64,000 nucleotides of DNA from Bacteroidetes bacterium MedPE-SWsnd-G2 (lineage in GTDB: Bacteria; Bacteroidota; Bacteroidia; Flavobacteriales; Flavobacteriaceae): assembly GCA_001874335.1 (NCBI GenBank), contig MPDE01000011.1, forward strand, positions 62,001 through 126,000, in the 5' to 3' direction. The notes under the pieces were generated by a model. The model worked only from the letters and a program-made list of their open reading frames with translations. It searched no databases and was not told the DNA's origin. Both the position numbers and the translations under genes were made by a program. Below, in pieces: positions 8,792 through 63,154 of this stretch (the stretch's first letter is position 1; each line of letters opens with the position of its first letter).

Positions 8792-11012
8792 AAGCTTTAT
8801 CTTTATTGCTCAATAAGGCTTGATAAAGTTTCTTCTCGAAATCGGCCTGCTTAAAGGGCTTAGAAATAATATCGTTAAACCCGGCTTCATCAAATTCATG
8901 CATTTTATCGTCTAAAGTTACAGCCGTAAGTGCAAAAATGGTTAGTTCTTTATTAAAGACTCTAATGCGTTTTGTTGCTTCTAATCCGCTAATACCAGGC
9001 ATATGAATATCCATTAAAACAATGTCGTAGTTATTGTTCTTAACATTTTCGACAGCGGCTTCACCATTGTCAACCACATCACACTTAAGTTTCATTTTGG
9101 TTAAAATCTTCTTAGTAATCATTTGGTTAATCTTATTGTCTTCAACAACCAAAATTCTAATATTGTCTGTATCTAAAGCTTCAATTTCTGGATTGATTTT
9201 AGGCACAACTTTCTTTATTTTCTTATCAGAATATTCTAAAGGAATTTCAAAGAAAAAAGTAGAACCTTTACCCAGTTCACTTTTAAGGTAGATTTTTCCT
9301 TTTAATATTTTAATTAGTCCTTTTACGATGGATAACCCAAGTCCTGTACCACCGTACTTTCTGTTAATTTGGATAGAGCCTTGATTGAAACTTTCAAACA
9401 TACTTTCTTGTTTCTCCTTAGAGATACCAATACCGTTGTCTTCAATCTCAAAACGAACATTAAAGATGCCGTTTTCTTCTGATACCTTATAAACTCTTAC
9501 CCAAATATCGCCATCCTTTGTAAACTTAATAGCGTTACCAATTAGGTTAATTAAAATCTGAGAGATTTTTAGTTGATCAGCAACAAAATTTTCTGGTAGA
9601 TTAGCATCATACTCAAAATGCATAATAATATTGTTGTCTAGTGCCGAGTTGTTTAAAGCAGCAATAACATTTTCAACTTTTTTATGTAAACTGAATAATT
9701 CAGGATCGACTTCTACTTTATTGGCTTCAATTTTATTGACTTGTAAAATATCATTAATAAAGGTAAGCAAGTAATCCCCAGAAAATTTAAGCGATTTTAA
9801 ATGCTTTACTTGATCTGGTTTTGGGCTTTCATCTAATAGCATATTTGTAAGACCTGTTACAGCATAGAGCGGTGTTCTTAGCTCGTGAGTAACTGTAGAT
9901 AAAAAGTTAGCCTTTGTTTGTGATGCTAATTCGGCCTTTTCCTTGGCAACAACCAATTCATCATTCTTTTTATGAAGCATGGTGTTGGTCTTTAACCTAA
10001 TGTTATTGTTCTTGTATAAGGACAAGGTTAGCAATGAAAGAATAGTAATTAATGCAATACTTAAAATGGTAGTAATACGTGTCAAGTTACTATCGGCTTC
10101 TTTTTCGTTTATGGTTGCCTTTAATTCTTCATTTTTGGCCTCTTGATAGTTTTGAATGTACTGTACATTCTTCTCTTCTGTCAGGTGGTCTCGTTTAATG
10201 TCTAAAATTGAATCTGAAAGTTGGACGTGTAATTTTAGATATTCATTTGAAAGTTTATATTCATTTTTTTCTTCGTAAATATCACTTAATGTCACATAGC
10301 TCTCATTAAGCAATGAAGCATTTTTTTGAGTTTTTGCGATTTCTAACCCTTCTAACGATTGATTTAATCCTTGTTCGTGATTTCCTAACTTACTTAACAC
10401 TAAGCCAGATAGTGTTAGTGAAGTACTAAGGAAGTCTTGTTGGTTGTACTTTTTAGAAAGTATGGTGCTTTGCTCTAAAAGAGCTTTGGCATCATTGTAT
10501 TGTTCAAGCGTAATATATACTCTGGCTTCGTTAAGCGAAACTTCTGCAATATGGTCTTCTAGGCCTTGCTCTTCAAGTTTGTTTTTTGAAGAATTATAAT
10601 AATCTAAGGCGTCTTGATACTCGCCGTTGTAAGCATGAAGCATCCCTCTTACATTGTAGGTGTAGGCAAGGTTGGCTTCATCGTTAATTTCTCTTTGAAT
10701 TTCGGCAGCTTTGGTTAGTGATACCAATGCTTTTTCAGGCTCTTTTATAGCGTATCTAAACTTGGCTATTTGAGTGTGAATTATACCCTGTTGTTTTTTA
10801 TTATCAATTTGAATGGCAATTTCTAACGCTCTATCAAGATTTCCTTTGGCTTTGTAGAATTCACCTCTTTGGCTTTCGAAATCGGCCTGAGTAATCATGT
10901 TTTGTACTCGCATTTCTAAAATGTCTACATCCTCATTGTTTGGAGTTTGTGCATTTAAAATGCAAGAAACACTTAAAAATAATGCTAATATATATAGGTT
11001 AAATCGGGGCAT
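8778..11012 (-). CDS. TPR-containing hybrid sensor histidine kinase / response regulator
   Basis: This 744 aa protein has, in order: an N-terminal signal/anchor, tetratricopeptide repeats filling about residues 30-280 (periplasmic sensor side), a coiled-coil region, one membrane segment (ITTILSIALITILSLLTLSLY, about 312-332), a HisKA domain with FLSTVTHELRTP (phospho-His), and a HATPase with NLIGNAIKFTKDG and GTGLGLSIVKGL. It ends in a receiver domain (about 620-735) with VVEDNKIN, the phospho-acceptor in IVLMDIHMPG, and a conserved Lys in SKPF. It has no attached output domain and no neighbouring regulator, so the partner is elsewhere. Paired palindromic repeats stand in front of it (11043-11077). 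Confidence 0.9.
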   Translation of the reverse strand: MPRFNLYILALFLSVSCILNAQTPNNEDVDILEMRVQNMITQADFESQRGEFYKAKGNLDRALEIAIQIDNKKQQGIIHTQIAKFRYAIKEPEKALVSLTKAAEIQREINDEANLAYTYNVRGMLHAYNGEYQDALDYYNSSKNKLEEQGLEDHIAEVSLNEARVYITLEQYNDAKALLEQSTILSKKYNQQDFLSTSLTLSGLVLSKLGNHEQGLNQSLEGLEIAKTQKNASLLNESYVTLSDIYEEKNEYKLSNEYLKLHVQLSDSILDIKRDHLTEEKNVQYIQNYQEAKNEELKATINEKEADSNLTRITTILSIALITILSLLTLSLYKNNNIRLKTNTMLHKKNDELVVAKEKAELASQTKANFLSTVTHELRTPLYAVTGLTNMLLDESPKPDQVKHLKSLKFSGDYLLTFINDILQVNKIEANKVEVDPELFSLHKKVENVIAALNNSALDNNIIMHFEYDANLPENFVADQLKISQILINLIGNAIKFTKDGDIWVRVYKVSEENGIFNVRFEIEDNGIGISKEKQESMFESFNQGSIQINRKYGGTGLGLSIVKGLIKILKGKIYLKSELGKGSTFFFEIPLEYSDKKIKKVVPKINPEIEALDTDNIRILVVEDNKINQMITKKILTKMKLKCDVVDNGEAAVENVKNNNYDIVLMDIHMPGISGLEATKRIRVFNKELTIFALTAVTLDDKMHEFDEAGFNDIISKPFKQADFEKKLYQALLSNKDKASKIA

Positions 11013-11031
11013 TTCACAGTTGTTTAATAGA

Positions 11032-11039
11032 CAAATATA
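11032..11039 (-). promoter_or_regulatory. -7 element of the hybrid histidine kinase gene
   Basis: On the minus strand this reads TATATTTG, an exact TAnnTTTG match 20 bases before the ATG at 11012. No TTTG is found at the -33 position; instead two palindromic repeats occupy it, which suggests activator-dependent or repressed transcription. Confidence 0.5.
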
Positions 11040-11042
11040 GTT

Positions 11043-11077
11043 ATTTATCCGATAAAAGCTATGATTTATCCGATAAA
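11043..11077. promoter_or_regulatory. Two palindromic direct repeats 21 bp apart, candidate operator
   Basis: ATTTATCCGATAAA occurs at 11043-11056 and again at 11064-11077, so the copies are 21 bases apart (two helical turns). Each contains a palindrome, TTTATC-C-GATAAA. They lie directly upstream of the kinase -7 element and run over the last codons and stop of gap. This is the geometry of a tandem dimer-binding site. The binding protein is unknown. Confidence 0.5.
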
Positions 11078-12057
11078 TTACATATCATGTCCACGATTCT
11101 ACTGCTGTATCCTGTTTCATTATCGTACCACCCAACAATCTTTACCATTTGACCAATAACAGATGTCATTTGTGAGTCAAAAATGCAAGAATTACTGTTC
11201 CCAACAATGTCAATGGAAACAATAGGATCTTCGGTATATTCAAGGATACCATTTAAATGCGACTGAGCGGCAGATTTAAAAGCGTTGTTAATGGTTTCAA
11301 TATTAATATCGCCTTCAATGTGAAAAGTGATATCGGTTAAAGATCCATTTGCTACAGGGACTCTTATGCCGCAACCTCCAATTACGTTTGAAAGCTCAGG
11401 GAAGATCTTTGTTAAAGCTTTAGCAGCCCCCGTTGTAGTAGGAACAATTGATTGTCCAGCTGCTCTAGCGCGCCTTAAGTCTTTATGAGGTTGATCATGT
11501 AAACTTTGGTCTGTAGTATATGAATGCACCGTGGTGATATAGGCTTCTTTAATCTTACATAGCGATTTTATTATCGCGATCATTGGTGCTGCATTATTAG
11601 TCGTGCAAGATGCATTAGAAATAATGGTTTCACTGCCATCAATTTCATTGTCATTAATACCTAATACTACAGTTTTTATATCATCGCCAACAGGAGGTAC
11701 GGTTAAAATTACCTTTTTTGCACCATTAGCGATATGAAATTCTAAGGTTTCTTTTTCTTTAAACTGACCACTTGATTCTATTACAAAATCCACATTATAG
11801 GGTGTCCAGTCTATTTTAGAAGGGTGATCTTCGTTTAAAAGTGTGATGCTTTTATTGTTAACAATAATATGTTCAGAATCAAAAGAAACATCCTGATTAA
11901 AAATACCATGAATACTATCGTACTTTAATAAATGACTTAGCGTTTTAGTGTCAGCCAAATCATTTATCACAACAACATTAATGTTGTCTTGAGATTGTAA
12001 TAATCTAAATACGCGTCGACCAATTCGACCAAAGCCATTAATGGCAACATTAATCAT
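11059..12057 (-). CDS. gap: Glyceraldehyde-3-phosphate dehydrogenase, type I
   Basis: This 332 aa enzyme converts glyceraldehyde-3-phosphate, phosphate and NAD to 1,3-bisphosphoglycerate. The N-terminal INGFGRIGRRVFR is the NAD-binding motif, SNASCTTNNAAP holds the catalytic Cys151, and GWYDNETGYSSRIVDM is the C-terminal signature. The NN after CTT replaces the commoner NC, as is usual in several Bacteroidota copies. It follows lipA by a single base, so the two are co-transcribed. The gene's last codons are shared with the palindromic repeats in front of the kinase gene. The direction of use (glycolytic or gluconeogenic) cannot be read from the sequence. Confidence 0.95.
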   Translation of the reverse strand: MINVAINGFGRIGRRVFRLLQSQDNINVVVINDLADTKTLSHLLKYDSIHGIFNQDVSFDSEHIIVNNKSITLLNEDHPSKIDWTPYNVDFVIESSGQFKEKETLEFHIANGAKKVILTVPPVGDDIKTVVLGINDNEIDGSETIISNASCTTNNAAPMIAIIKSLCKIKEAYITTVHSYTTDQSLHDQPHKDLRRARAAGQSIVPTTTGAAKALTKIFPELSNVIGGCGIRVPVANGSLTDITFHIEGDINIETINNAFKSAAQSHLNGILEYTEDPIVSIDIVGNSNSCIFDSQMTSVIGQMVKIVGWYDNETGYSSRIVDMICNLSDKS

Positions 12058-48466: not shown

Positions 48467-48474
48467 TACATTTG
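48467..48474 (+). promoter_or_regulatory. -7 element of topA
   Basis: TACATTTG is an exact TAnnTTTG match, 19 bases before the topA ATG. No clear TTTG is seen at -33. The rest of the 222-base divergent region (48272-48493) shows nothing else clear. Confidence 0.45.
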
Positions 48475-48493: not shown

Positions 48494-50983
48494 ATGGCGA
48501 AGAATTTAGTAATTGTTGAGTCACCTGCAAAAGCGAAAACTATTGAGAAATTTTTGGGAAAAGATTTTAAAGTAGAATCGAGCTTTGGTCATATTGCCGA
48601 CCTTCCTTCTAAAGAATTAGGAGTTGATGTTGATGGCGATTTTAAACCAAAGTATGAGGTGTCGAAAGACAAAAAAGCGGTGGTTAAAAAACTTAAGGAT
48701 TTAGCTAAAAAATCTGAAATGGTTTGGTTAGCGAGTGATGAGGATCGTGAAGGAGAGGCTATTGCTTGGCATTTGGCAGAAACCCTAAAGTTAGACAAAG
48801 ACAGAACTAAAAGAATTGTTTTTCATGAGATTACTAAGTCGGCTATAAAAAAAGCTGTTGACAATCCTAGAGGAATAGATTACGATTTGGTCGATGCACA
48901 ACAAGCAAGACGTGTATTAGATAGAATTGTAGGTTATGAGCTATCTCCAGTATTATGGAGAAAAGTAAAAGGAGGTTTATCTGCTGGTCGTGTGCAATCT
49001 GTTTCTGTGAGATTAATTGTGGAACGTGAGCGTGAGATTCAAAAGTTTCAACCAGTGGCTTCTTATAAAATAGATGCCGAGTTCTCAAATGAATCTGGAC
49101 AGACTTTTAAGGCAAAATTACCTAAACCATTTGCGTCTAAGGAAGAGGCAATGGCATTTTTGAAAGCCAATTTGTCGGCAGATTTTAAGGTTAATAACCT
49201 TGAGAAGAAGCCTGCAAAGAAATCGCCTGCGGCTCCGTTTACAACCTCTACCTTACAGCAAGAGGCTTCTCGTAAATTGTACTTTTCAGTGAGTAAAACA
49301 ATGACAATGGCGCAACGTTTGTATGAAGCCGGTCTTATTACTTATATGAGAACGGATAGTGTAAACTTATCTCAAGATGCTCGTGATGCGGCTAAGATTG
49401 AAATTGCTCAAGCTTACGGTGAAAATTATAGCACGCCAAGAAATTATAAAGGTAAAGCTAAAGGCGCACAAGAAGCGCATGAGGCTATTAGACCAACCGA
49501 TTTTTCAAAACACTCGGTTGATATTGATAGAGATCAAGCAAGATTGTATGAGCTAATTTGGAAACGTGCAATCGCTTCTCAAATGAGTGATGCAAAATTA
49601 GAACGCACCAATGTTAAGATTGGAGCAAATACACATAAACAAATATTTACAGCCAACGGTGAGGTCATTACTTTCGATGGATTTTTAAAGGTGTACTTAG
49701 AAGGTACAGATGATGAAGATTTATCAGAACAAGAAGGAATGTTACCTGCGCTTAAAGTTGATGAGACGTTGTTAAATTCGTTTATATCTGCAACCGAGAG
49801 ATACACAAGACCTCCATATAGATATTCTGAAGCTTCTTTAGTTAAGAAATTAGAAGAGTTAGGTATTGGTAGACCGTCTACTTACGCCCCAACAATTTCT
49901 ACGATCCAAAATAGAAATTATGTTGAAAAAGGAGCTGTTGAAGGTGTTGAGCGTAACTATTCGCAATTAAAATTACAAGCGGGAGCAATTACCGATACAG
50001 AATTAACTGAGAAGGTAGGTTCTGATAAAGGTAAATTGGTGCCTACAGATATAGGAATGATTGTTACTGACTTTTTGGTAAATCATTTTGAAACCATTTT
50101 AGATTACAATTTTACGGCCAAAGTAGAAGAGGATTTTGATAATATTGCGGCAGGTAAAGAAGATTGGACTAAGATGATGAAAGACTTCTATAAAGATTTT
50201 CATCCGCATGTAGAAGATGTTCAAGCTAATGCCGAACGCGAATCTGGAGAACGTATTTTAGGTAAGGATCCTAAAACGGGAAAACAGGTAAGTGTAAGGT
50301 TAGGTCGTTTTGGACCAATGGTTCAAATTGGTACTGTTGATGATGAAGAGAAACCTCAGTTTGCGAGTTTATCTCCAGATCAACAATTGACGACTATAAC
50401 GTTTGAAGAAGCCATGGATTTGTTCCAACTTCCAAAAAATTTAGGGGTTTATTTATCTGAAGATGTGGAGGTTAACAACGGGCGTTTTGGTCCCTATGTG
50501 AAATATGGAAAAAAATATGTATCCTTGCCATCCGGAACCGATCCTTTAAGTGTTGATTTAGACTTTGCGATAGAGTTAATTAAGGAAAAAGAAAAGGCTG
50601 ATGCGCCTATTTATGAGTACCAAGATTTACCTGTTCAAAAAGGAAAAGGCCGTTTTGGTCCATTTATAAAATGGAACAATATGTTTATTAACGTAAACAA
50701 AAAATACGATTGGGATAATTTATCAGATTCAGATATTGTCACTCTTATAGAAGATAAAATTCAAAAGGAGAAAGATAAACTGATTCATAGTTGGGAAAGC
50801 GAAGGAATTCGTGTTGAAAAAGCCAGATGGGGTAGACATAATGTTATAAAAGGTAAAATAAAAGTAGAATTACCTAAAACAGTTGATGTCTCTGAGATGA
50901 CTTTAGAAGAAGCTCAAAAAATTATAGCCGATAAAACGCCAAAGAAAAAGGCGACAAAAAGAAAAACGACTAAAAAGAAATAA
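48494..50983 (+). CDS. topA: DNA topoisomerase I
   Basis: This 829 aa type IA topoisomerase relaxes negative supercoils. The Toprim domain starts NLVIVESPAKAKTIEKFLG with DEDREGEAIAWHLAE as the acidic Mg site. The active-site Tyr is in GLITYMRTDSVNLS. In place of zinc fingers the C-terminal part carries several repeats of the form GRFGPxVxxG (GRFGPMVQIG, GRFGPYVKYG, GRFGPFIKWN) and ends in a Lys-rich tail. It is followed within 3 bases by the arginase-fold gene, so these two are co-transcribed. Confidence 0.97.
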   Translation: MAKNLVIVESPAKAKTIEKFLGKDFKVESSFGHIADLPSKELGVDVDGDFKPKYEVSKDKKAVVKKLKDLAKKSEMVWLASDEDREGEAIAWHLAETLKLDKDRTKRIVFHEITKSAIKKAVDNPRGIDYDLVDAQQARRVLDRIVGYELSPVLWRKVKGGLSAGRVQSVSVRLIVEREREIQKFQPVASYKIDAEFSNESGQTFKAKLPKPFASKEEAMAFLKANLSADFKVNNLEKKPAKKSPAAPFTTSTLQQEASRKLYFSVSKTMTMAQRLYEAGLITYMRTDSVNLSQDARDAAKIEIAQAYGENYSTPRNYKGKAKGAQEAHEAIRPTDFSKHSVDIDRDQARLYELIWKRAIASQMSDAKLERTNVKIGANTHKQIFTANGEVITFDGFLKVYLEGTDDEDLSEQEGMLPALKVDETLLNSFISATERYTRPPYRYSEASLVKKLEELGIGRPSTYAPTISTIQNRNYVEKGAVEGVERNYSQLKLQAGAITDTELTEKVGSDKGKLVPTDIGMIVTDFLVNHFETILDYNFTAKVEEDFDNIAAGKEDWTKMMKDFYKDFHPHVEDVQANAERESGERILGKDPKTGKQVSVRLGRFGPMVQIGTVDDEEKPQFASLSPDQQLTTITFEEAMDLFQLPKNLGVYLSEDVEVNNGRFGPYVKYGKKYVSLPSGTDPLSVDLDFAIELIKEKEKADAPIYEYQDLPVQKGKGRFGPFIKWNNMFINVNKKYDWDNLSDSDIVTLIEDKIQKEKDKLIHSWESEGIRVEKARWGRHNVIKGKIKVELPKTVDVSEMTLEEAQKIIADKTPKKKATKRKTTKKK

Positions 50984-50986
50984 TTC

Positions 50987-52153
50987 ATGAACTTTAATTT
51001 CCTTGAGCCTGTATCGGATGTTGTGTTAGCTCACAACGAGTTACTTTCCCAGCAGGCGCTTGGGCCAAAAATTAGAGTTCATTCTAAGCAAAACGGTATA
51101 CCAGATTTAGAAGGTGTTCGTGTTGCAATATTAGGGGTTTGTGAAAACAGAAACGACATCAATTATATCGGAGACGATTTAAATTTTGATGAAGTAAGAA
51201 AATGTTTTTATAGCCTCTTCCCAGGAAATTGGTTTACCGAAATAGCAGACTTGGGTGATATTGTCCAAGGCAACAGTATTCAAGATACGTATTTCGCACT
51301 TCGTACTTCGGTAGAATCTTTATTACAACAAAAAATCATTCCTATTATATTGGGAGGTGGACAAGATCTAACCTTTTCTATATATAGGGCGTATGACAAT
51401 GTTCAGCCTATGGTGAATATGGTTAACGTTGATAGTAATTTTGATTTAGGTGATGCTAATCAACCGATAAAAAATAATAGCTTTTTTAGTAAAATTATAC
51501 TGGAACAACCATTCAACCTATTTAATTACTCAGCGGTAGGGTATCAAACCTATTTCAACTCTCAAGAAGAAATAGACTTGATGGATCGCTTGTTTTTTGA
51601 AGCTTATAGGTTAGGAGAGGTTTCAAACGATATTCATCTAGTAGAGCCGGTTATGAGAGATGCTCATATAGTGAGTATTGATTTAAAATCGATAAAAGGT
51701 TCCGAAGTAGGGGCGAAGCAACACTATTCTCCAAATGGATTAGATGGCAAAGAAATTTGTGCCATAGCGAGATATGCAGGCATAAGTAATAAGGTGTCTT
51801 CTTTTGGGATATTTGAGTACAAACCAAATTCTGATGACGCTCTAACACCTATGTTAATGGGGCAAATGATGTGGTACTTTGTTGAAGGGGTTAACTGTAG
51901 AGTGAGTGACGACCAGTTTAACGATGAAAATAGTTATTTAAAGTATAATGTAATGATAGAGAATGAGGAGCTCATTTTCTTTAAGAGTACAAAAACAGGA
52001 CGCTGGTGGATAGAAATACCATTTTTGCCAAATGTTAATAATAAATTAAAAAAACACACGTTATTACCTTGCACTTACGATGATTACGTGCAGGCTAGTA
52101 ATGGTAAAATACCTGAGAGATGGTATAAGGCCTATAAAAAGAACAGTTTCTAA
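50987..52153 (+). CDS. Arginase/formimidoylglutamase-fold protein with an incomplete metal site
   Basis: The 388 aa product matches the ureohydrolase fold and would be labelled formimidoylglutamase by automatic annotation. The three Mn-binding signatures are changed: the GGxH motif reads GGGQD (Gln126 for His), DAHxD reads DSNFD (149-153, Asn for His), and SxDxD reads SIDLK (231-233, Lys for the second Asp). So at least three of six ligands are lost and hydrolase activity is unlikely. No other histidine-degradation genes are near. It lies 3 bases after topA and just before gldK, so a structural or regulatory role linked to the type IX system is possible. Confidence 0.8.
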   Translation: MNFNFLEPVSDVVLAHNELLSQQALGPKIRVHSKQNGIPDLEGVRVAILGVCENRNDINYIGDDLNFDEVRKCFYSLFPGNWFTEIADLGDIVQGNSIQDTYFALRTSVESLLQQKIIPIILGGGQDLTFSIYRAYDNVQPMVNMVNVDSNFDLGDANQPIKNNSFFSKIILEQPFNLFNYSAVGYQTYFNSQEEIDLMDRLFFEAYRLGEVSNDIHLVEPVMRDAHIVSIDLKSIKGSEVGAKQHYSPNGLDGKEICAIARYAGISNKVSSFGIFEYKPNSDDALTPMLMGQMMWYFVEGVNCRVSDDQFNDENSYLKYNVMIENEELIFFKSTKTGRWWIEIPFLPNVNNKLKKHTLLPCTYDDYVQASNGKIPERWYKAYKKNSF

Positions 52154-52312: not shown

Positions 52313-53683
52313 ATGAATATGAAGAAGTTTGCTTTATTAACCGCAGTTTTAGCTTTACTTGCCAGTTGTAGTTCTGGTGATAAAGGAGAATTGGTTGGAG
52401 TTAAAGGAAAGAAATGGCACCCAGAAAAGCCATATGGTATGACCTTAGTCCCTGGTGGCGCATTTATTATGGGTAAGTCTGATGATGATTTAGCAGGCGT
52501 TAACGATGCACCTACTAAGACTGTTACTGTAAGATCCTTTTATATGGATGAGACAGAAATTACCAATAGCGAATACAGACAATTCGTTGAGTGGGTAAGA
52601 GATTCTACAATCCGTACGAAGTTAGCAATACTTGCTGATGAAATTGGAGAGGTTCCTGGAACAGGTGGAATCGGAGAATTTGCATTTAAAGATTCAGATC
52701 CAGATAACATGACAGTATACGAAAAGTATATGTATGATAACTACAGTGGATTAGGACCTACAGGTTACGAAGGTCGTAAACTGAATAAAGATGTAGAACT
52801 TATTTTTGATACGGCTGAATACCCAGATGAGTATTATTCTGAAATCATGGATACGATGTACTTACCAATAGAGGAGTCTTATAACGGACAACGTACTTGG
52901 GATGTAAATAAATTCAAGTTTCAATACACTTATATGGATATTGAAAAAGCAGCTAAAAACAGAAATCTTAGTCGTAAGGATGTAATTATTACTGAAGAAG
53001 TAAAAGTATATCCAGATACTACAGCTTGGATTAGAGATTTCGCTTATTCTTATAATGAGCCAATGCATAATGATTATTTCTGGCATGATGCTTATGGAGA
53101 ATATCCTGTAGTTGGTGTGTCTTGGGAACAAGCTAAAGCATTTTGTGAGTGGAGAACACTATACAAAAACGCTTACCAAAAAGAAAGAAAAGGTCAGTTT
53201 GTAAATAAATTTAGATTACCATCTGAAGCGGAGTGGGAGTATGCTGCTCGTGGAGGTCTGCAAGGAGCAACTTACCCTTGGGGTGGTCCTTATGCTAAAA
53301 ACGACAGAGGTTGTTTCTTAGCTAACTTTAAGCCTTTACGTGGTGATTACGCAGCAGATCAAGCATTATATACTGTAGAAGCAGACTCTTATGAGCCAAA
53401 CGACTTTAACTTATATAATATGGCTGGTAATGTATCTGAATGGGTACACGCATCTTACGATCCATCTTCATACGAATATGTATCCACAATTAACCCAAGT
53501 GTTAATGACGTGAAAAACCAACGTAAAGTGGTACGTGGTGGATCATGGAAAGATGTTGCTTACTTCTTACAAGTAAGTTCAAGAGATTACGAATATGCTG
53601 ATTCGGCAAGAAGTTACATCGGGTTTAGAACTATCCAAGATTACATGGGTACAGAAGTAACAGCAAACGCAGCAACTAACTAA
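52313..53683 (+). CDS. gldK: Type IX secretion / gliding motility lipoprotein GldK
   Basis: This 456 aa lipoprotein (lipobox LALLASCSSG; the second ATG six bases on is equally possible as start) has an FGE-sulfatase-like domain over most of its length: GMTLVPGGAFIMGKSDDD near the start, FRLPSEAEWEYAARGG, YNMAGNVSEWVHAS and KVVRGGSWKDVAYF near the end. The formylglycine-enzyme cysteines are absent, as in other GldK/PorK. With GldN it forms the periplasmic ring of the T9SS next to the outer membrane. Confidence 0.96.
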   Translation: MNMKKFALLTAVLALLASCSSGDKGELVGVKGKKWHPEKPYGMTLVPGGAFIMGKSDDDLAGVNDAPTKTVTVRSFYMDETEITNSEYRQFVEWVRDSTIRTKLAILADEIGEVPGTGGIGEFAFKDSDPDNMTVYEKYMYDNYSGLGPTGYEGRKLNKDVELIFDTAEYPDEYYSEIMDTMYLPIEESYNGQRTWDVNKFKFQYTYMDIEKAAKNRNLSRKDVIITEEVKVYPDTTAWIRDFAYSYNEPMHNDYFWHDAYGEYPVVGVSWEQAKAFCEWRTLYKNAYQKERKGQFVNKFRLPSEAEWEYAARGGLQGATYPWGGPYAKNDRGCFLANFKPLRGDYAADQALYTVEADSYEPNDFNLYNMAGNVSEWVHASYDPSSYEYVSTINPSVNDVKNQRKVVRGGSWKDVAYFLQVSSRDYEYADSARSYIGFRTIQDYMGTEVTANAATN

Positions 53684-53756: not shown

Positions 53757-54392
53757 ATGGCAAAAAAAGGAAAAATCACGGTAACTAACATGGTCTATGG
53801 AATGGGAGCAGCAATTGTAATTGTTGGAGCCTTATTTAAAATTCAACACTGGCCTTTCGGATCTGAAATCCTAACATTAGGAATGGTAGTAGAAGCATTA
53901 GTATTTATGTATTCTGCATTCGAAAGACAAGCTGGAGATTTAGATTGGTCATTAGTTTACCCTGAGTTAGAAGGAGCTGAAACAACTTCTAAGAAAAACA
54001 CTAAAGAAGAGCCAAAAGACGCAGAAGGACAATTATCTAAAAAATTAGATAACTTATTAAAAGAAGCTAAGATTGATGGTGAATTAATGTCAAGCTTAGG
54101 AAATAGCATTAAAAACTTTGAAGGTGCAGCAAAAAACATGGGTCCTACAGTAGATTCTATGTCTGCAACTAAAAAATACAGTGAAGAATTATCTTTAGCT
54201 GCTGCTCAAATGGAGTCTTTAAACAGCCTTTATAAAGTACAATTAGATAGCGTTAACCGTCAAGCTTCAATCAACGAAGAAGCAGTAGAAAATGCTACTA
54301 AATTAAAAGAGCAAATGCAATCATTAGCATCTAACCTATCATCTTTAAATGGTGTTTACGGTGGAATGTTATCTGCAATGAACAAAAACTAA
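53757..54392 (+). CDS. gldL: Type IX secretion inner-membrane motor protein GldL
   Basis: The 211 aa product has two N-terminal membrane helices joined by a short loop (NMVYGMGAAIVIVGALFKI, then QHWPFGSEILTLGMVVEALVFM). The helices carry the Lys and Glu residues that take part in proton-driven rotation with GldM (the conserved Glu is in VVEALVFMYS). The remaining ~150 residues are cytosolic and helical. It follows gldK and precedes gldM, forming the motor that drives T9SS export and gliding. Confidence 0.96.
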   Translation: MAKKGKITVTNMVYGMGAAIVIVGALFKIQHWPFGSEILTLGMVVEALVFMYSAFERQAGDLDWSLVYPELEGAETTSKKNTKEEPKDAEGQLSKKLDNLLKEAKIDGELMSSLGNSIKNFEGAAKNMGPTVDSMSATKKYSEELSLAAAQMESLNSLYKVQLDSVNRQASINEEAVENATKLKEQMQSLASNLSSLNGVYGGMLSAMNKN

Positions 54393-54444: not shown

Positions 54445-55986
54445 ATGGCAGGAGGAAAAGCATCTGCAAGGCAGAAAATGATTAACCTGATGTACTTAGT
54501 ATTTATTGCAATGATGGCAATGAATATGTCTAAAGAAGTACTATCCGCATTCGGTTTGATGAATGAAAAATTCACAGTAGCTAATGAAGCTACCGATGCA
54601 AGAAATGAGAGTTTTATGGCAGGTTTAGCTGAGAAGGTTTCAGAACAACCAGCAAAATACCAACCATTAAAAGGTCAAGCTGATCAAATTGAGACCTTAT
54701 CTAATGAATTAGATACTTATATCGAAGATCTTAAAGGTAAAATGTTAAAAGGAATAGAAGATCGTAGTAATTACGAAGCTATGGATAACACAGCCTTTTT
54801 AGATGAGTACTTCTTTACAGGAGATGCGTTGAATAGGAATGGAAAGGCTTTTGTTGCAGCTTACGAAAAATATAGAGATGGTGTAGTAGAGGTATTATCT
54901 GGTAACCCTGATATGGCAGATATTTCTGCAAGTGTAACTAAGGCCTTCAATACAGAAGAGGTTACTAATAAAGATGGGAAGAAAATTAAATGGTTAGATT
55001 ACCACTATAAAGGATATCCTTTAGTAGCATCTTTAACTAAGTTAACTTCTATTCAATCTGATATTAAAACAACTCAGTCTGAAGTATTGAGTAGTATGTT
55101 AGGGTCTAAGTTACAGTCAGAAGTGTCTTTAAGTAACTTCGAAGCTATTGTAGTACCTGCAAAAACGGCTTTCTTCTCAGGAGAGAATTTCCAAGGAACA
55201 ATTATCTTAGGTAAAAAAGATAATACATTAAGTGCTCATAAAGTAGTTATTAATGGTACAGAATTGGCTGCAGAAGCTATGCAAGCTGGTAAAACGATTT
55301 TAGACTTCCCTGCTGGTGCAGTAGGAGAACGTGAAATTACTGGTGAATTCCAATTTAAAGAAGGAGATTCAATCGTAAAAATTGCTGTTAATAGTTCTTA
55401 TGCTGTTGTACCTAAACCAAACTCGGCTACTATTTCAGCTGATAAAATGAATGTAGTTTACCGTGGTGTTGATAACCCAATGACTATTTCTTTTGCTGGT
55501 ATTTCTGATAACAATGTTACAGCAAGTGCTCCTGGATTGAAAAAGGCTGGTAAAGGTTATGTAATGCGTCCTACTTCTGGTAGAGAGGTTACAATTAACG
55601 TTAAAGGTATATTAGCAGATGGTAAGGCAGCGAATGATCAAGCAACATTTAGAATTAAAGATATTCCTGCACCAACAGGAGCTATTAGAGGAGAAATGGG
55701 ACTTGTAAAAATGCAACGTAATAGTTTAGAGATTTCTACTATTTCTGCTGAATTACCTGGATTCGATTTCGACTTAAAATTAAATGTTTCTGGATTCAAA
55801 TTTAAAGTTCCTGGTCAACCAACTATCAACGTAAGTGGTAAGAAATTGGATTCAAGAGCTAAAGCTGCTTTACGTAAAGCTAAGCGTGGTGATGCAGTGC
55901 AAGTATTCGATATTCAAGCGAAGATTGCTAACAACCCAACTAAATTAAAGAAAGTTGCTCCGGTATTTATCGAGTTAACTAACTAA
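54445..55986 (+). CDS. gldM: Type IX secretion inner-membrane motor protein GldM
   Basis: The 513 aa product starts with AGGKASARQKMINLMYLVFI, whose single membrane helix contacts GldL. The long periplasmic part is made of four domains (D1-D4); D1 is helical (about residues 35-220), the rest are beta-rich (FFSGENFQGTIILGKKDN, YRGVDNPMTISFAGI, ...). The dimer transmits rotation from GldL to the GldK/GldN ring. The length is the usual one for the family. Confidence 0.97.
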   Translation: MAGGKASARQKMINLMYLVFIAMMAMNMSKEVLSAFGLMNEKFTVANEATDARNESFMAGLAEKVSEQPAKYQPLKGQADQIETLSNELDTYIEDLKGKMLKGIEDRSNYEAMDNTAFLDEYFFTGDALNRNGKAFVAAYEKYRDGVVEVLSGNPDMADISASVTKAFNTEEVTNKDGKKIKWLDYHYKGYPLVASLTKLTSIQSDIKTTQSEVLSSMLGSKLQSEVSLSNFEAIVVPAKTAFFSGENFQGTIILGKKDNTLSAHKVVINGTELAAEAMQAGKTILDFPAGAVGEREITGEFQFKEGDSIVKIAVNSSYAVVPKPNSATISADKMNVVYRGVDNPMTISFAGISDNNVTASAPGLKKAGKGYVMRPTSGREVTINVKGILADGKAANDQATFRIKDIPAPTGAIRGEMGLVKMQRNSLEISTISAELPGFDFDLKLNVSGFKFKVPGQPTINVSGKKLDSRAKAALRKAKRGDAVQVFDIQAKIANNPTKLKKVAPVFIELTN

Positions 55987-56038: not shown

Positions 56039-56938
56039 ATGAAAATGATGAAGAATAGAAATTTATTATTAACTGTTTTAGCTGTATTTGCAGTAACTGT
56101 TTCTTTCGGGCAAGCAAATATTCTAAATGCTAAGCAAACTGAAGAGATCGGAATTAAATCTGAAGCTCACCAGTTGATGGATAATGACAAGCCATTAGAA
56201 TATGGATACGTGGATGATAGAGACATTTTATTTTCTAAAATGACTTGGGAAAAGGTTGTACTTGATGAAAGAGCAAACTTCCCTTATTACTACCCTGTAG
56301 ATACTAATAATATTGGTAAAGAAAGACGTTCGTTATACGATGTTTTAATGCGCGGTATTAAAGATGGGGAGTTAGAGAACTTATATGATGATTCATATTT
56401 TTCATCTAAACGTACACTTAAGGATATTGAAGCGGCCTTAATTAAAGTTGATACTACAGATTTAGGTATTGAGCAATTTAATGCTGAAGGTATTGTAGAT
56501 CCTCAATATATTAGACGTAGAGAAATTTCTGCATATGATATTAAAGAATACCGTATTAAAGGTCTTTGGTATTTTGACAAGCGTCAAGGTGAATTAAAGT
56601 ACAGATTATTAGGTATTGCACCTGTATCTCCGGATGTTAACTTTATTGATTCTGAAGATGGTGATTTAGTTGAATTGTTTTGGGTATTCTTCCCAGAGGC
56701 AAGAGACATTTTACACCATGCAAATTCATTCAATAATAAGAATAGTGCAATTCCAGTATCTTTTGATCACTTGTTAAACTCAAGACGTTTTAACGGTTAC
56801 ATGTACAAAGAAGAAAATGTATATGGAGACAGAGAGATTAAAGAGTACGTTGCAGAAAATGCCTTAATGCAATTAATAGAATCTGATCGTATTAAAGAAA
56901 AGATTCGTAGTTTCGAACAAGATATGTGGGCTTACTAA
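56039..56938 (+). CDS. gldN: Type IX secretion / gliding motility protein GldN
   Basis: The 299 aa product carries a signal peptide (NRNLLLTVLAVFAVTVSFGQ) followed by the GldN/PorN domain with GYVDDRDILFSKMTWEKVVLDERANFP (about residues 57-83), LWYFDKRQGELKYRLLGIAP and FWVFFPEARDILHHANSFN. It binds GldK to form the periplasmic ring. Two ATGs nine bases apart allow either start. A strong terminator follows at 56962-56992, so this is the end of the operon; gldO is not present here. Confidence 0.96.
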   Translation: MKMMKNRNLLLTVLAVFAVTVSFGQANILNAKQTEEIGIKSEAHQLMDNDKPLEYGYVDDRDILFSKMTWEKVVLDERANFPYYYPVDTNNIGKERRSLYDVLMRGIKDGELENLYDDSYFSSKRTLKDIEAALIKVDTTDLGIEQFNAEGIVDPQYIRRREISAYDIKEYRIKGLWYFDKRQGELKYRLLGIAPVSPDVNFIDSEDGDLVELFWVFFPEARDILHHANSFNNKNSAIPVSFDHLLNSRRFNGYMYKEENVYGDREIKEYVAENALMQLIESDRIKEKIRSFEQDMWAY

Positions 56939-60642: not shown

Positions 60643-61548
60643 ATGAAATCTGCAAAATTAAGTCTGATATGCTTTTTAGTTACTCTATATAGTTTTGCTG
60701 GAGTTTCTACTACAGAACGACAAGCTCTTTTAGACTTTTACAATTCAACATCTGGAAATAATTGGAATACCAATTGGGACGTGAATGAACCGGTTTCTAA
60801 TTGGTACGGCGTAGTGGTAAAAAATGATCATGTTGTTGAGTTGAATCTGGCATTTAATAATCTAAACGGAGTAATACCAGAGAGCATAGGCAATTTAAAA
60901 CACCTCGTACAGTTAAATCTTTTTAAAAATGAGTTAAGTGGAAATTTGCCAAAATCAATCGGGCAATTGCAAAACTTAGAAGGCTTAAATATATCGTTTA
61001 ATAAGTTAGACGGTGCATTACCACAGGAAATAACAACGCTTAAGTCGCTTAAGGAAATGCAGTTGTTTATGAATAGAATAAGTGGTACCATTCCTGAGTC
61101 TATTGGTGATTTACAGCAATTAAAAGTTCTGGAGTTGTATAGTAATGATCTTGAAGGCGAATTACCTGCAAGTATTGGTGAACTTTCTGAGCTAAATATA
61201 TTATTGATTAGTAGTAATAATATTTCAGGTCGTTTACCACATAATCTTGGTCAGCTTACAAAACTGAAAGTTTTAAGTGTATTTGATAATAATTTATTTG
61301 GCACTATACCTTCAACGATAGGAGGCTTGAGCAACTTGGAAGAATTAGTATTATCAAATAATGCGTTTTATGGTAATTTACCAAATGAATTAGCGGCATT
61401 AACAAATTTGAAGATATTAATGTTGGGAAATAACGCTTTCAAAGGTGATTTGGTAAGTTTACAGAAAAAATTCCCAAATATTATTGAGTTCAATATTGAC
61501 AATAATGATAATAAAGGCACTATAGTAACCTTAGATACAGAGGATTAA
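60643..61548 (+). CDS. Secreted plant-type leucine-rich repeat protein
   Basis: The 301 aa product has a signal peptide (LSLICFLVTLYSFAG) and an N-terminal cap (ERQALLDFYNSTSGNNWNTN..., WYGV) like the LRRNT domain of plant receptor kinases. Nine full 24-residue repeats follow, of the form LxxLxLxxNxLxGxIPxxIGxL (about residues 65-280). It ends shortly after with no type IX C-terminal sorting domain and no kinase or anchor, so it should be released to the periplasm or exported by another route. A binding role is likely; the partner is unknown. It stands alone between a 206-base gap without visible features and a terminator. Confidence 0.88.
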   Translation: MKSAKLSLICFLVTLYSFAGVSTTERQALLDFYNSTSGNNWNTNWDVNEPVSNWYGVVVKNDHVVELNLAFNNLNGVIPESIGNLKHLVQLNLFKNELSGNLPKSIGQLQNLEGLNISFNKLDGALPQEITTLKSLKEMQLFMNRISGTIPESIGDLQQLKVLELYSNDLEGELPASIGELSELNILLISSNNISGRLPHNLGQLTKLKVLSVFDNNLFGTIPSTIGGLSNLEELVLSNNAFYGNLPNELAALTNLKILMLGNNAFKGDLVSLQKKFPNIIEFNIDNNDNKGTIVTLDTED

Positions 61549-61750: not shown

Positions 61751-61780
61751 AACGGATTGTGTCTCACAATCCGTTTTTTT
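61751..61780 (+). terminator. Intrinsic terminator after tRNA-fMet
   Basis: ACGGATTGTG (61752-61761) and its complement (61765-61774) surround TCT and are followed by seven T in total. It would end the tRNA transcript before the integrase. Confidence 0.8.
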
Positions 61781-61808
61781 ATGCAAAGTGTTTCGCAATT
61801 TTTATTAG

Positions 61809-61832
61809 CAGTACACGATTCAGTACACGATT
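61809..61832. repeat. Tandem 12-bp direct repeat before the integrase gene
   Basis: CAGTACACGATT occurs twice in direct contact (61809-61820, 61821-61832), ending six bases before the integrase ATG. It lies between the tRNA attachment region and the recombinase gene, where arm-type binding sites are often found. It is read as VHDSVHDF if the integrase start were further upstream. Confidence 0.55.
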
Positions 61833-61837
61833 TTAAC

Positions 61838-63154
61838 ATGAAATTAAATTACTCAGAGCCGAAAATTTTTACTGGTGGCGTTGATGTTAGTCGATGGTCT
61901 AAGCTTTCAAAAAAGGAGCAATCTGATGCTCTTAAGAAAGATTGGTATGTATATTTTTCCTTTAGAAATCCCAAAACAGGGAAATTAGAACGTCAAACCA
62001 ATTTAAAGGGTAACGCAAATAGTTATACCAAAAGAGCTAATAGGTTAAAAGTTCTTAAACCAATTCAGAAAAGATTGATTCATATTCTGGAAGCAGGATA
62101 CAATCCTTATTCTGAAGATAATTCACTTGTAGTGCATAAGCTTAGAGGGACACAACCTGAAGCTAAATTGTCCAAGCCGATAATTGAGCAGCCCACTCCT
62201 TTAAAAGTTGTTAATTCAGAAAATAAAGTAGAGGAAAAGCCAAAACTTGTTTTGAGTATTAAAGATGCTTTGGAATTGGTGTTAAGTACCAAGCAAAAAG
62301 TATTAAATGAAACATCTTATCCCAAGTTTAAAAGTAAAATTGGTCAGTTTGAAAGATGGTTGTACAATAATAATTTTAAGGCTGAAGAATGTATATCCTT
62401 GGTAACTAAAAAGGATGTTATTGAGTTTTTGAATGATGTACTTCAAAGAACAAGTGCAAGAACAAGGAATAATTCGAGAATAGATATCAGTTCCTTTTTT
62501 CAAACGCTTGTGGATAATGAAATTTTACAAGATAACTTTGTAAAGAAAATTAATGTTCTAAAATCTAAACCTACTCGAAACAAAACGTATACAAAAACCA
62601 ATTTAGATGAAGTTCATGTGTTTATGAATGAAAACTATCCAACGTTATCACTTTTTGTAAAATTTATGTCTTACAGTGTAATACGTCCAATAGAAGTTTG
62701 TAGGTTAAAGGTTGGGGATATTAATATTGAGCAAAGAGAAATTTATGTAAAAGCTAAAAATAAGCCTCTTCAAACTAAACGTCTTACACAAATATTACTT
62801 GATGAATTGCCAGATTTATCAAAATTAGACAAGGATTTATATTTATTTACGCCCGAAGGAATAGGGGGAGAGTGGGATATTAAATCATATAATAAGAGAG
62901 GTTATTTTTCCAATCAATTTAAGAAAGTTAAGGATCAATTTGGGTTGGGGAAAGAGTATGGTTTGTATAGCTTTAGACACACTTACATAACAATGATGTT
63001 TAGGAAGTTGAAAACTAAATTGGGAAGCTCTTATCAAGCAAAAATTGAATTAATGCCAATAACAGGTCATAGTACTATGGCGGCTTTAGAGAAGTATCTT
63101 AGAGAGATTGATGCAGAACTACCTGATGACTATACTTATTTGTTGAAGAATTAG
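61838..63154 (+). CDS. Tyrosine recombinase (site-specific integrase)
   Basis: The ATG at 61838 gives 438 aa; in-frame starts at 61757 and 61781 lie in the tRNA terminator and the direct repeat and are less likely. The N-terminal ~150 residues form an arm-binding-like domain (KLNYSEPKIFTGGVDVSRW). A SAM-like core-binding domain follows (about 165-260). The catalytic domain has its first Arg in SVIRPIEVCRL, YSFRHTYITMM with the second Arg (Tyr where the HxxR His usually stands), MPITGHSTM and the nucleophile Tyr in LEKYLREI. Lying next to tRNA-fMet, it is the integrase of a mobile island that continues to the right. Confidence 0.92.
   Translation: MKLNYSEPKIFTGGVDVSRWSKLSKKEQSDALKKDWYVYFSFRNPKTGKLERQTNLKGNANSYTKRANRLKVLKPIQKRLIHILEAGYNPYSEDNSLVVHKLRGTQPEAKLSKPIIEQPTPLKVVNSENKVEEKPKLVLSIKDALELVLSTKQKVLNETSYPKFKSKIGQFERWLYNNNFKAEECISLVTKKDVIEFLNDVLQRTSARTRNNSRIDISSFFQTLVDNEILQDNFVKKINVLKSKPTRNKTYTKTNLDEVHVFMNENYPTLSLFVKFMSYSVIRPIEVCRLKVGDINIEQREIYVKAKNKPLQTKRLTQILLDELPDLSKLDKDLYLFTPEGIGGEWDIKSYNKRGYFSNQFKKVKDQFGLGKEYGLYSFRHTYITMMFRKLKTKLGSSYQAKIELMPITGHSTMAALEKYLREIDAELPDDYTYLLKN

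Follow-up and report, generated by a model that had tools for sequence, protein, structure and literature searches.

The open reading frame at positions 50987 to 52153 (+ strand) of the window, the 64,000-nucleotide stretch of DNA analysed here, appears to encode a ureohydrolase that has lost its chemistry and been put to another use. It starts with ATG and specifies a protein of 388 amino acids whose sole Pfam match is PF00491 (Arginase, E 8.8e-16). A predicted loss of ureohydrolase catalysis is well supported by the residues at the metal-binding positions. The explanation that we prefer, and that as a whole we place a little under an even chance, is that the product, a cytosolic pseudo-ureohydrolase, acts by binding or regulation, the T9SS being the probable partner process.

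The gene follows topA (48494-50983, + strand; NCBIfam TIGR01051 above cut-off) and is followed on the same strand by gldK/porK (52313-53683; TIGR03525), gldL/porL (53757-54392; TIGR03513), gldM/porM (54445-55986; TIGR03517) and gldN/porN (56039-56938; TIGR03523), all four above cut-off. Three bases separate the topA stop from the ATG and 159 bases separate the stop of the pseudo-ureohydrolase gene from the gldK start; the ORF coordinates and the NCBIfam matches thus bear out the location that the sequence-only reading had described, right before gldKLMN and 3 bases from topA. The Bacteroidota-type promoter motif TAnnTTTG has one copy at 48467, before topA, which is uninformative in a window that holds 98 matches against 102 expected. 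A separate gldK promoter was considered and rejected, TAnnTTTG not being enriched before gldK (5 of 79 gaps, versus 10.5 in shuffles). Further along the window, an ORF at 61757-63154 that by eye resembles a tyrosine recombinase lies downstream of a leucine-rich-repeat-like ORF (60643-61548). Two loci from other genomes, L095 (about 10760-11766) and L096 (about 10790-11887), contain between their gldM and gldN matches roughly 1 kb that is absent from the window and may represent an additional gene or an altered gldM or gldN end.

An AlphaFold model, computed from the window protein together with 54 related loci, reached a pLDDT of 89.9 and a pTM of 0.91. Its best structural matches are to T. 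cruzi formiminoglutamase (VIA Z 33.8, rmsd 2.2-2.3 over 276-278 residues) and cover residues 20-306. Together with the Pfam match, this places the protein in the ureohydrolase superfamily, and we are confident that the predicted fold is that of a ureohydrolase. Beyond it, residues 308-388 (51908-52150, + strand) form an extra small C-terminal domain of about 80 residues. A Pfam search with the fragment 51914-52150 gave no match. Folded alone, the domain reached a pLDDT of 84.8; assignment to a known fold was tried and abandoned, neither the best Foldseek match (E 0.94) nor the best VIA match (Z 3.6) being convincing, which does not amount to evidence for a new fold. Used as a search profile, the domain recovered the pseudo-ureohydrolase in 26 of 31 genomes, with a single weak match elsewhere (E 0.01), and nothing in the other five, one of which (G152) has a diverged copy by the full profile. 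The protein shows no transmembrane-like stretch (the highest 19-residue Kyte-Doolittle mean is 0.93), and no hydrophobic, signal-like start was seen by eye at its N-terminus.

Human arginase I binds its metals through H101, H126, D124, D128, D232 and D234, according to the available part of PMC6213053. The six corresponding positions of the window protein, counted from Met1, are Gln126 (in place of His; motif GGGQD; codon 51362-51364), Asp149 (51431-51433), Asn151 (in place of His; motif DSNFD; 51437-51439), Asp153 (51443-51445), Asp232 (51680-51682) and Lys234 (in place of Asp; motif SIDLKS; 51686-51688), all codons on the + strand. Instead of the two His and four Asp of a catalytic ureohydrolase, the protein therefore has three replacements, as had been noticed from the sequence, except that the lysine, then numbered 233, is residue 234. 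Orthologues were collected as 213 rows (a 208-row set was also used), with repeats included and 200 distinct; loci L001 and L002 are excluded, and one row (L074) contains X letters. Not a single one of the 213 rows, nor of the 80 named rows taken alone, has the complete six-ligand set: one ligand is kept in 10 rows, two in 18, three in 175 and four in 10. Because no orthologue row keeps all six, the loss is not a strain-level change, the finding that would have undone the earlier interpretation. Its claim of an arginase-fold pseudoenzyme thus stands family-wide by sequence; taken as a whole, with its suggestion of a job in secretion or gliding, that interpretation is only partly supported.

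The losses follow a pattern. Among 97 representatives (a greedy pick at 80% identity), positions 151 and 234 are among the least conserved, ranking 340 and 317 of 386, and the His and Asp pair of site B is kept in none. Asp is retained at position 149 in 90 of the 97, at position 153 in 85 and at position 232 in 90. Thirteen formimidoylglutamase-type controls all keep the second His and the last Asp; three of them carry one change each, at another ligand site. Substitution of metal B by a single Lys or Arg at 151 or 234 was considered and rejected: the pattern gives a Fisher p of 4e-7 on all 213 redundant rows and is lost on the representatives (p 0.25), 33 of the 97 having neither.

Several observations suggest that the new state is old and maintained. 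In a tree of 69 chosen rows, the 44 pseudoenzyme rows form a single clade, set apart from the 25 others, which include the intact ureohydrolases, with branch support 100/100. Seven pairs gave dN/dS values of 0.02-0.07, at dS values of 0.9-2.5 that are near saturation. Glu220, Pro221, Arg224 and Trp296 do not vary in any of the 213 rows and are unconserved in the 13 controls. The gene is, by these comparisons, under strong purifying selection, and its product has acquired new constraints rather than being a decaying enzyme. The ligand loss holds family-wide and generalises across the class; on the most economical account, it preceded the divergence of the class lineages sampled.

The protein probably descends from a formimidoylglutamase-like ancestor. 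It shares with HutG (T. cruzi 4mxr, B. subtilis 3m1r) the fold over residues 20-306 and a profile match, but differs in lacking two His ligands and one Asp ligand, in carrying the extra C-terminal domain and in falling below the NCBIfam cut-off. Its score against hutG (TIGR01227) is 55.4 bits, compared with an equivalog cut-off of 229.15, so that NCBIfam gives no ground for a formimidoylglutamase label. The comparison that the sequence-only reading had proposed, of gldK-adjacent orthologues with true HutG copies, gave the expected contrast: the former lack the ligand set, while the source genome has a second arginase-family copy, on contig C16, with the intact-looking motifs GGGHNNS, DAHTDF and VDCDS. 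At locus L001 the third motif aligned as VEVDCDS.

The gene is widespread. Among genomes of the window's own family, searching with the window protein recovered it from 146 of 149, including all 124 that are at least 90% complete. It occurs in 153 of 196 genomes of an order-level sample (weakly in G160), absences there being counted as the complement of the genomes among the matches listed. Two alignments, A1 and A2, comprise 42 and 55 chosen rows; the A1 profile matched 232 of 247 genomes of a class-level sample (G397, G431 and G433 weakly). The three weak class matches (E 1e-16 to 1e-18) and the weak order match (3e-17) may be ordinary ureohydrolases. The names Flavobacteriaceae and Bacteroidia, as applied to the samples, rest on 80 named loci and inference. 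Beyond the class, the best match had an E value of 1.4e-44, compared with 1e-85 or lower for nearly all carriers among the matches listed, two f77 genomes (1e-37) being the exception. The two f77 loci, L239 and L240, are strongly diverged, with the ligand region largely gone; close to one of them, on the opposite strand, is a match resembling gldK. None of the matches beyond the class extends past profile position 320, and the C-terminal part is missing from them. In the six that were examined, the motifs are intact or nearly so (one has Asn in place of the first His, another has Asn in place of an Asp), and neither gldK nor topA was found nearby.

In the preferred explanation, the protein would have no ureohydrolase activity and would work by binding other molecules, through the invariant new residues (such as Glu220, Pro221, Arg224 and Trp296) and the C-terminal domain, while the old active-site pocket would serve at most as a ligand or single-metal site. 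With lower confidence, the process served may be the T9SS, for example assembly or control of a PorP-GldKLMN complex from the cytoplasmic side. This link to the T9SS is the most economical functional guess, tentative as it is; a role in secretion seems more plausible than one in gliding. The main rival is a binding role independent of the T9SS: the protein would be a housekeeping binding protein or sensor, for example of an amino acid or guanidino metabolite, and its adjacency to gldK an inherited gene order. We regard this as unlikely.

Gene neighbourhood bears on both readings. Of the 80 named Flavobacteriaceae-type loci, 79 have topA upstream and 79 have gldK downstream. The median distance to gldK is 157 bases, a spacing in line with the housekeeping role. 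A set of 40 diverse loci of the order includes 38 with topA upstream (three of them at 1.5-3.6 kb) and 32 with gldK downstream; 12 of these 32 have a gap to gldK of 1.07-1.23 kb, which in the four loci examined contains a PorP/SprF-like protein, confirmed by Pfam in two. The 24 top-scoring class loci outside the order, viewed with 1.5 kb flanks, show topA in 22 and gldK in 15. Genes of the porP/gldKLMN set thus adjoin the pseudo-ureohydrolase gene, with exceptions. Family f5 has gldK near the gene in only one of seven loci, the other six keeping the gene regardless, and five loci of f64, f30, f55 and f50 (L242, L248, L249, L250 and L252) have neither topA nor gldK within the 14-16 kb read; both groups favour a function without ties to secretion. 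Neither neighbour was found near L086, a locus of the window's own family.

Co-occurrence with GldM leads to a similar balance. GldM was detected in 237 of the 247 class genomes and 158 of the 196 order genomes. The class sample divides into 227 genomes with the gene and GldM, 10 with GldM alone, five with the gene alone and five with neither; the corresponding numbers for the order are 151, 7, 2 and 36. Carriers almost always have a T9SS, but the converse fails, as the genomes with GldM alone show (10 of the 247 and 7 of the 196). So many genomes of the class have GldM that finding it in carriers counts for little. Near-universality of the gene in the class sample is what a housekeeping role would predict. 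Against such a role, carriers without GldM are few (5 of 232 and 2 of 153), and six of these seven are only 60-86% complete (81, 86, 60 and 70% in the class, 86 and 68% in the order); the seventh is 95% complete and its match ends about 470 bases from a contig end, on the gldK side. Adjoining genes also vanish together from incomplete assemblies. Among the class genomes with GldM alone, four of the 10 are 56-82% complete. A further argument against the housekeeping role is that the gene is missing from all 30 sampled genomes of f16 and from several T9SS-positive lineages, and is therefore not strictly essential. The f16 genomes, of 0.3-0.6 Mb, make up 30 of the 36 double absences in the order, so that these losses are far from independent; 29 of the 30 (L264 and L269 are examples) keep one strong arginase-family match and G163 has none. 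Seven GldM-positive genomes of 1.1-1.9 Mb without the gene, from f9, f10, f12 and f15 (genus g180), offer natural comparisons, as cases of a T9SS that would function in its absence. A tie to gliding, with GldJ as the marker, was considered and rejected, the strength of the GldJ match not tracking the gene: f17, f30, f54, f58, f63 and f64, among others, have the gene with weak GldJ, and f33 and f66 have strong GldJ with the gene absent or doubtful.

A more specific version of the T9SS link, in which the protein is a class-wide cytosolic cofactor derived from a disarmed formimidoylglutamase, whose half-kept site A senses a metal or small metabolite and whose invariant new surface and C-terminal domain relay the signal to the motor, for example to the cytoplasmic part of GldL, strikes us as improbable. 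If true, secretion and gliding would be receiving a metabolic or metal signal that was missed because the protein resembles an enzyme. There is a precedent for a soluble protein that acts on the motor of the T9SS: PorX is a cytoplasmic T9SS regulator that binds PorL, as described in the accessible part of PMC5005315. PorX is a response regulator, however, a different kind of protein from the pseudo-ureohydrolase, for which an interaction with the T9SS is putative.

The closest positional link of the gene is to topA, not to gldK. The gap to topA does not exceed 10 bases in 57 of the 79 named loci that have it, and in family f5 topA adjoins the gene in four of seven loci, three of which have no gldK nearby. 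These arrangements would suit a protein that is translated together with TopA, partners with it or with topA expression, and takes part in DNA topology or in controlling it. TopA is, to our knowledge, near universal, yet the gene is missing from some lineages; topA is not seen in the 14-16 kb read at the five f30, f50, f55 and f64 loci, and the fold match gives no hint of DNA binding. We consider a TopA partnership quite improbable.

Whether the protein might be an active enzyme of altered chemistry, using one metal at site A (Gln126, Asp149, Asp153 and Asp232) or none, depends on the retained residues. We take site A of arginase to be H101, D124, D128 and D232, and site B to be D124, H126, D232 and D234. 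The three Asp of site A, together with Gln, Asn or His at the first position, are kept in 83 of the 97 representatives, and these positions rank among the better conserved of the 386 (Asp232 38, Asp149 39, Asp153 57, Gln126 86); the four commonest residues at position 126 are Gln (77), His (9), Asn (8) and Lys (1). T. cruzi formiminoglutamase itself appears to have Asn at the first ligand position, since 4myn is its N114H variant, going by the entry titles. Speaking against retained chemistry, in six of the seven f5 loci none of the three site A Asp remains although the gene is still there, which disfavours any metal-based role, and Glu277, invariant in the 13 controls, is replaced in 47 of the 213 rows. 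Histone deacetylases share the superfamily fold and have a single metal site, their zinc site corresponding to arginase site B in the portion of PMC5454378 that was available. They keep site B, whereas the pseudo-ureohydrolase family mostly keeps site A and loses B, a mirror image, and the total absence of the site B pair from the representatives is at odds with an HDAC-like one-metal deacetylase. We consider an altered enzyme improbable.

Least probable is a helper role like that of MetCb, which lacks catalysis itself and activates the ureohydrolase MetCa. Such a role has a precedent in the same superfamily (PMC11271267, as far as its available text goes) and a conceivable partner in the single second copy of the source genome, which lies on another contig, but it is unlikely in general, because 23 of 24 chosen carriers show no other arginase-family match. 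These 24 were hand-chosen as at least 90% complete (one with 6% contamination) and as having at most one arginase-family match, and that weak: at the selection cut-off 22 had one weak match and two had none. The pseudo-ureohydrolase gene is the sole PF00491 match in 23, and one shows none; further arginase-family genes do occur in other carriers. MetCb, the non-catalytic subunit of metformin hydrolase, is also a ureohydrolase-fold pseudoenzyme, and its clade has three to five of the six ligands changed (available part of PMC11271267). It differs from the present protein in having a catalytic partner, which in our case is neither beside the gene in the window nor detected in those 23 carriers.

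We know of no class-wide bacterial conservation or secretion-gene neighbourhood for pseudo-arginases such as that of T. brucei. The T. brucei arginase-like protein and other pseudo-arginases have in common with the pseudo-ureohydrolase an arginase fold without the metal cluster (PMC10820115, in the part available); the T. brucei protein is eukaryotic, unlike the present one. A literature search, with preprints and most subscription journals outside its range, returned, among the papers listed, no account tying an arginase-family gene to gldK or the T9SS, though one may exist. In the available parts of the papers retrieved, the co-mention in PMC9169529 concerns a biochemical test and a reference rather than a gene link, PMC4755523 is unrelated to the question and PMC11885536 does not contain the word arginase.

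Few pseudo-ureohydrolases are known, and the accessible text of PMC11271267 describes their functions as elusive. The family described here adds one that is under strong selection, occurs in 232 of 247 class genomes and often adjoins the operon at the core of a major apparatus for secretion and motility. As a T9SS factor it would add a soluble component that genetics may have overlooked; otherwise it would be a class-wide conserved protein with the looks of an enzyme.
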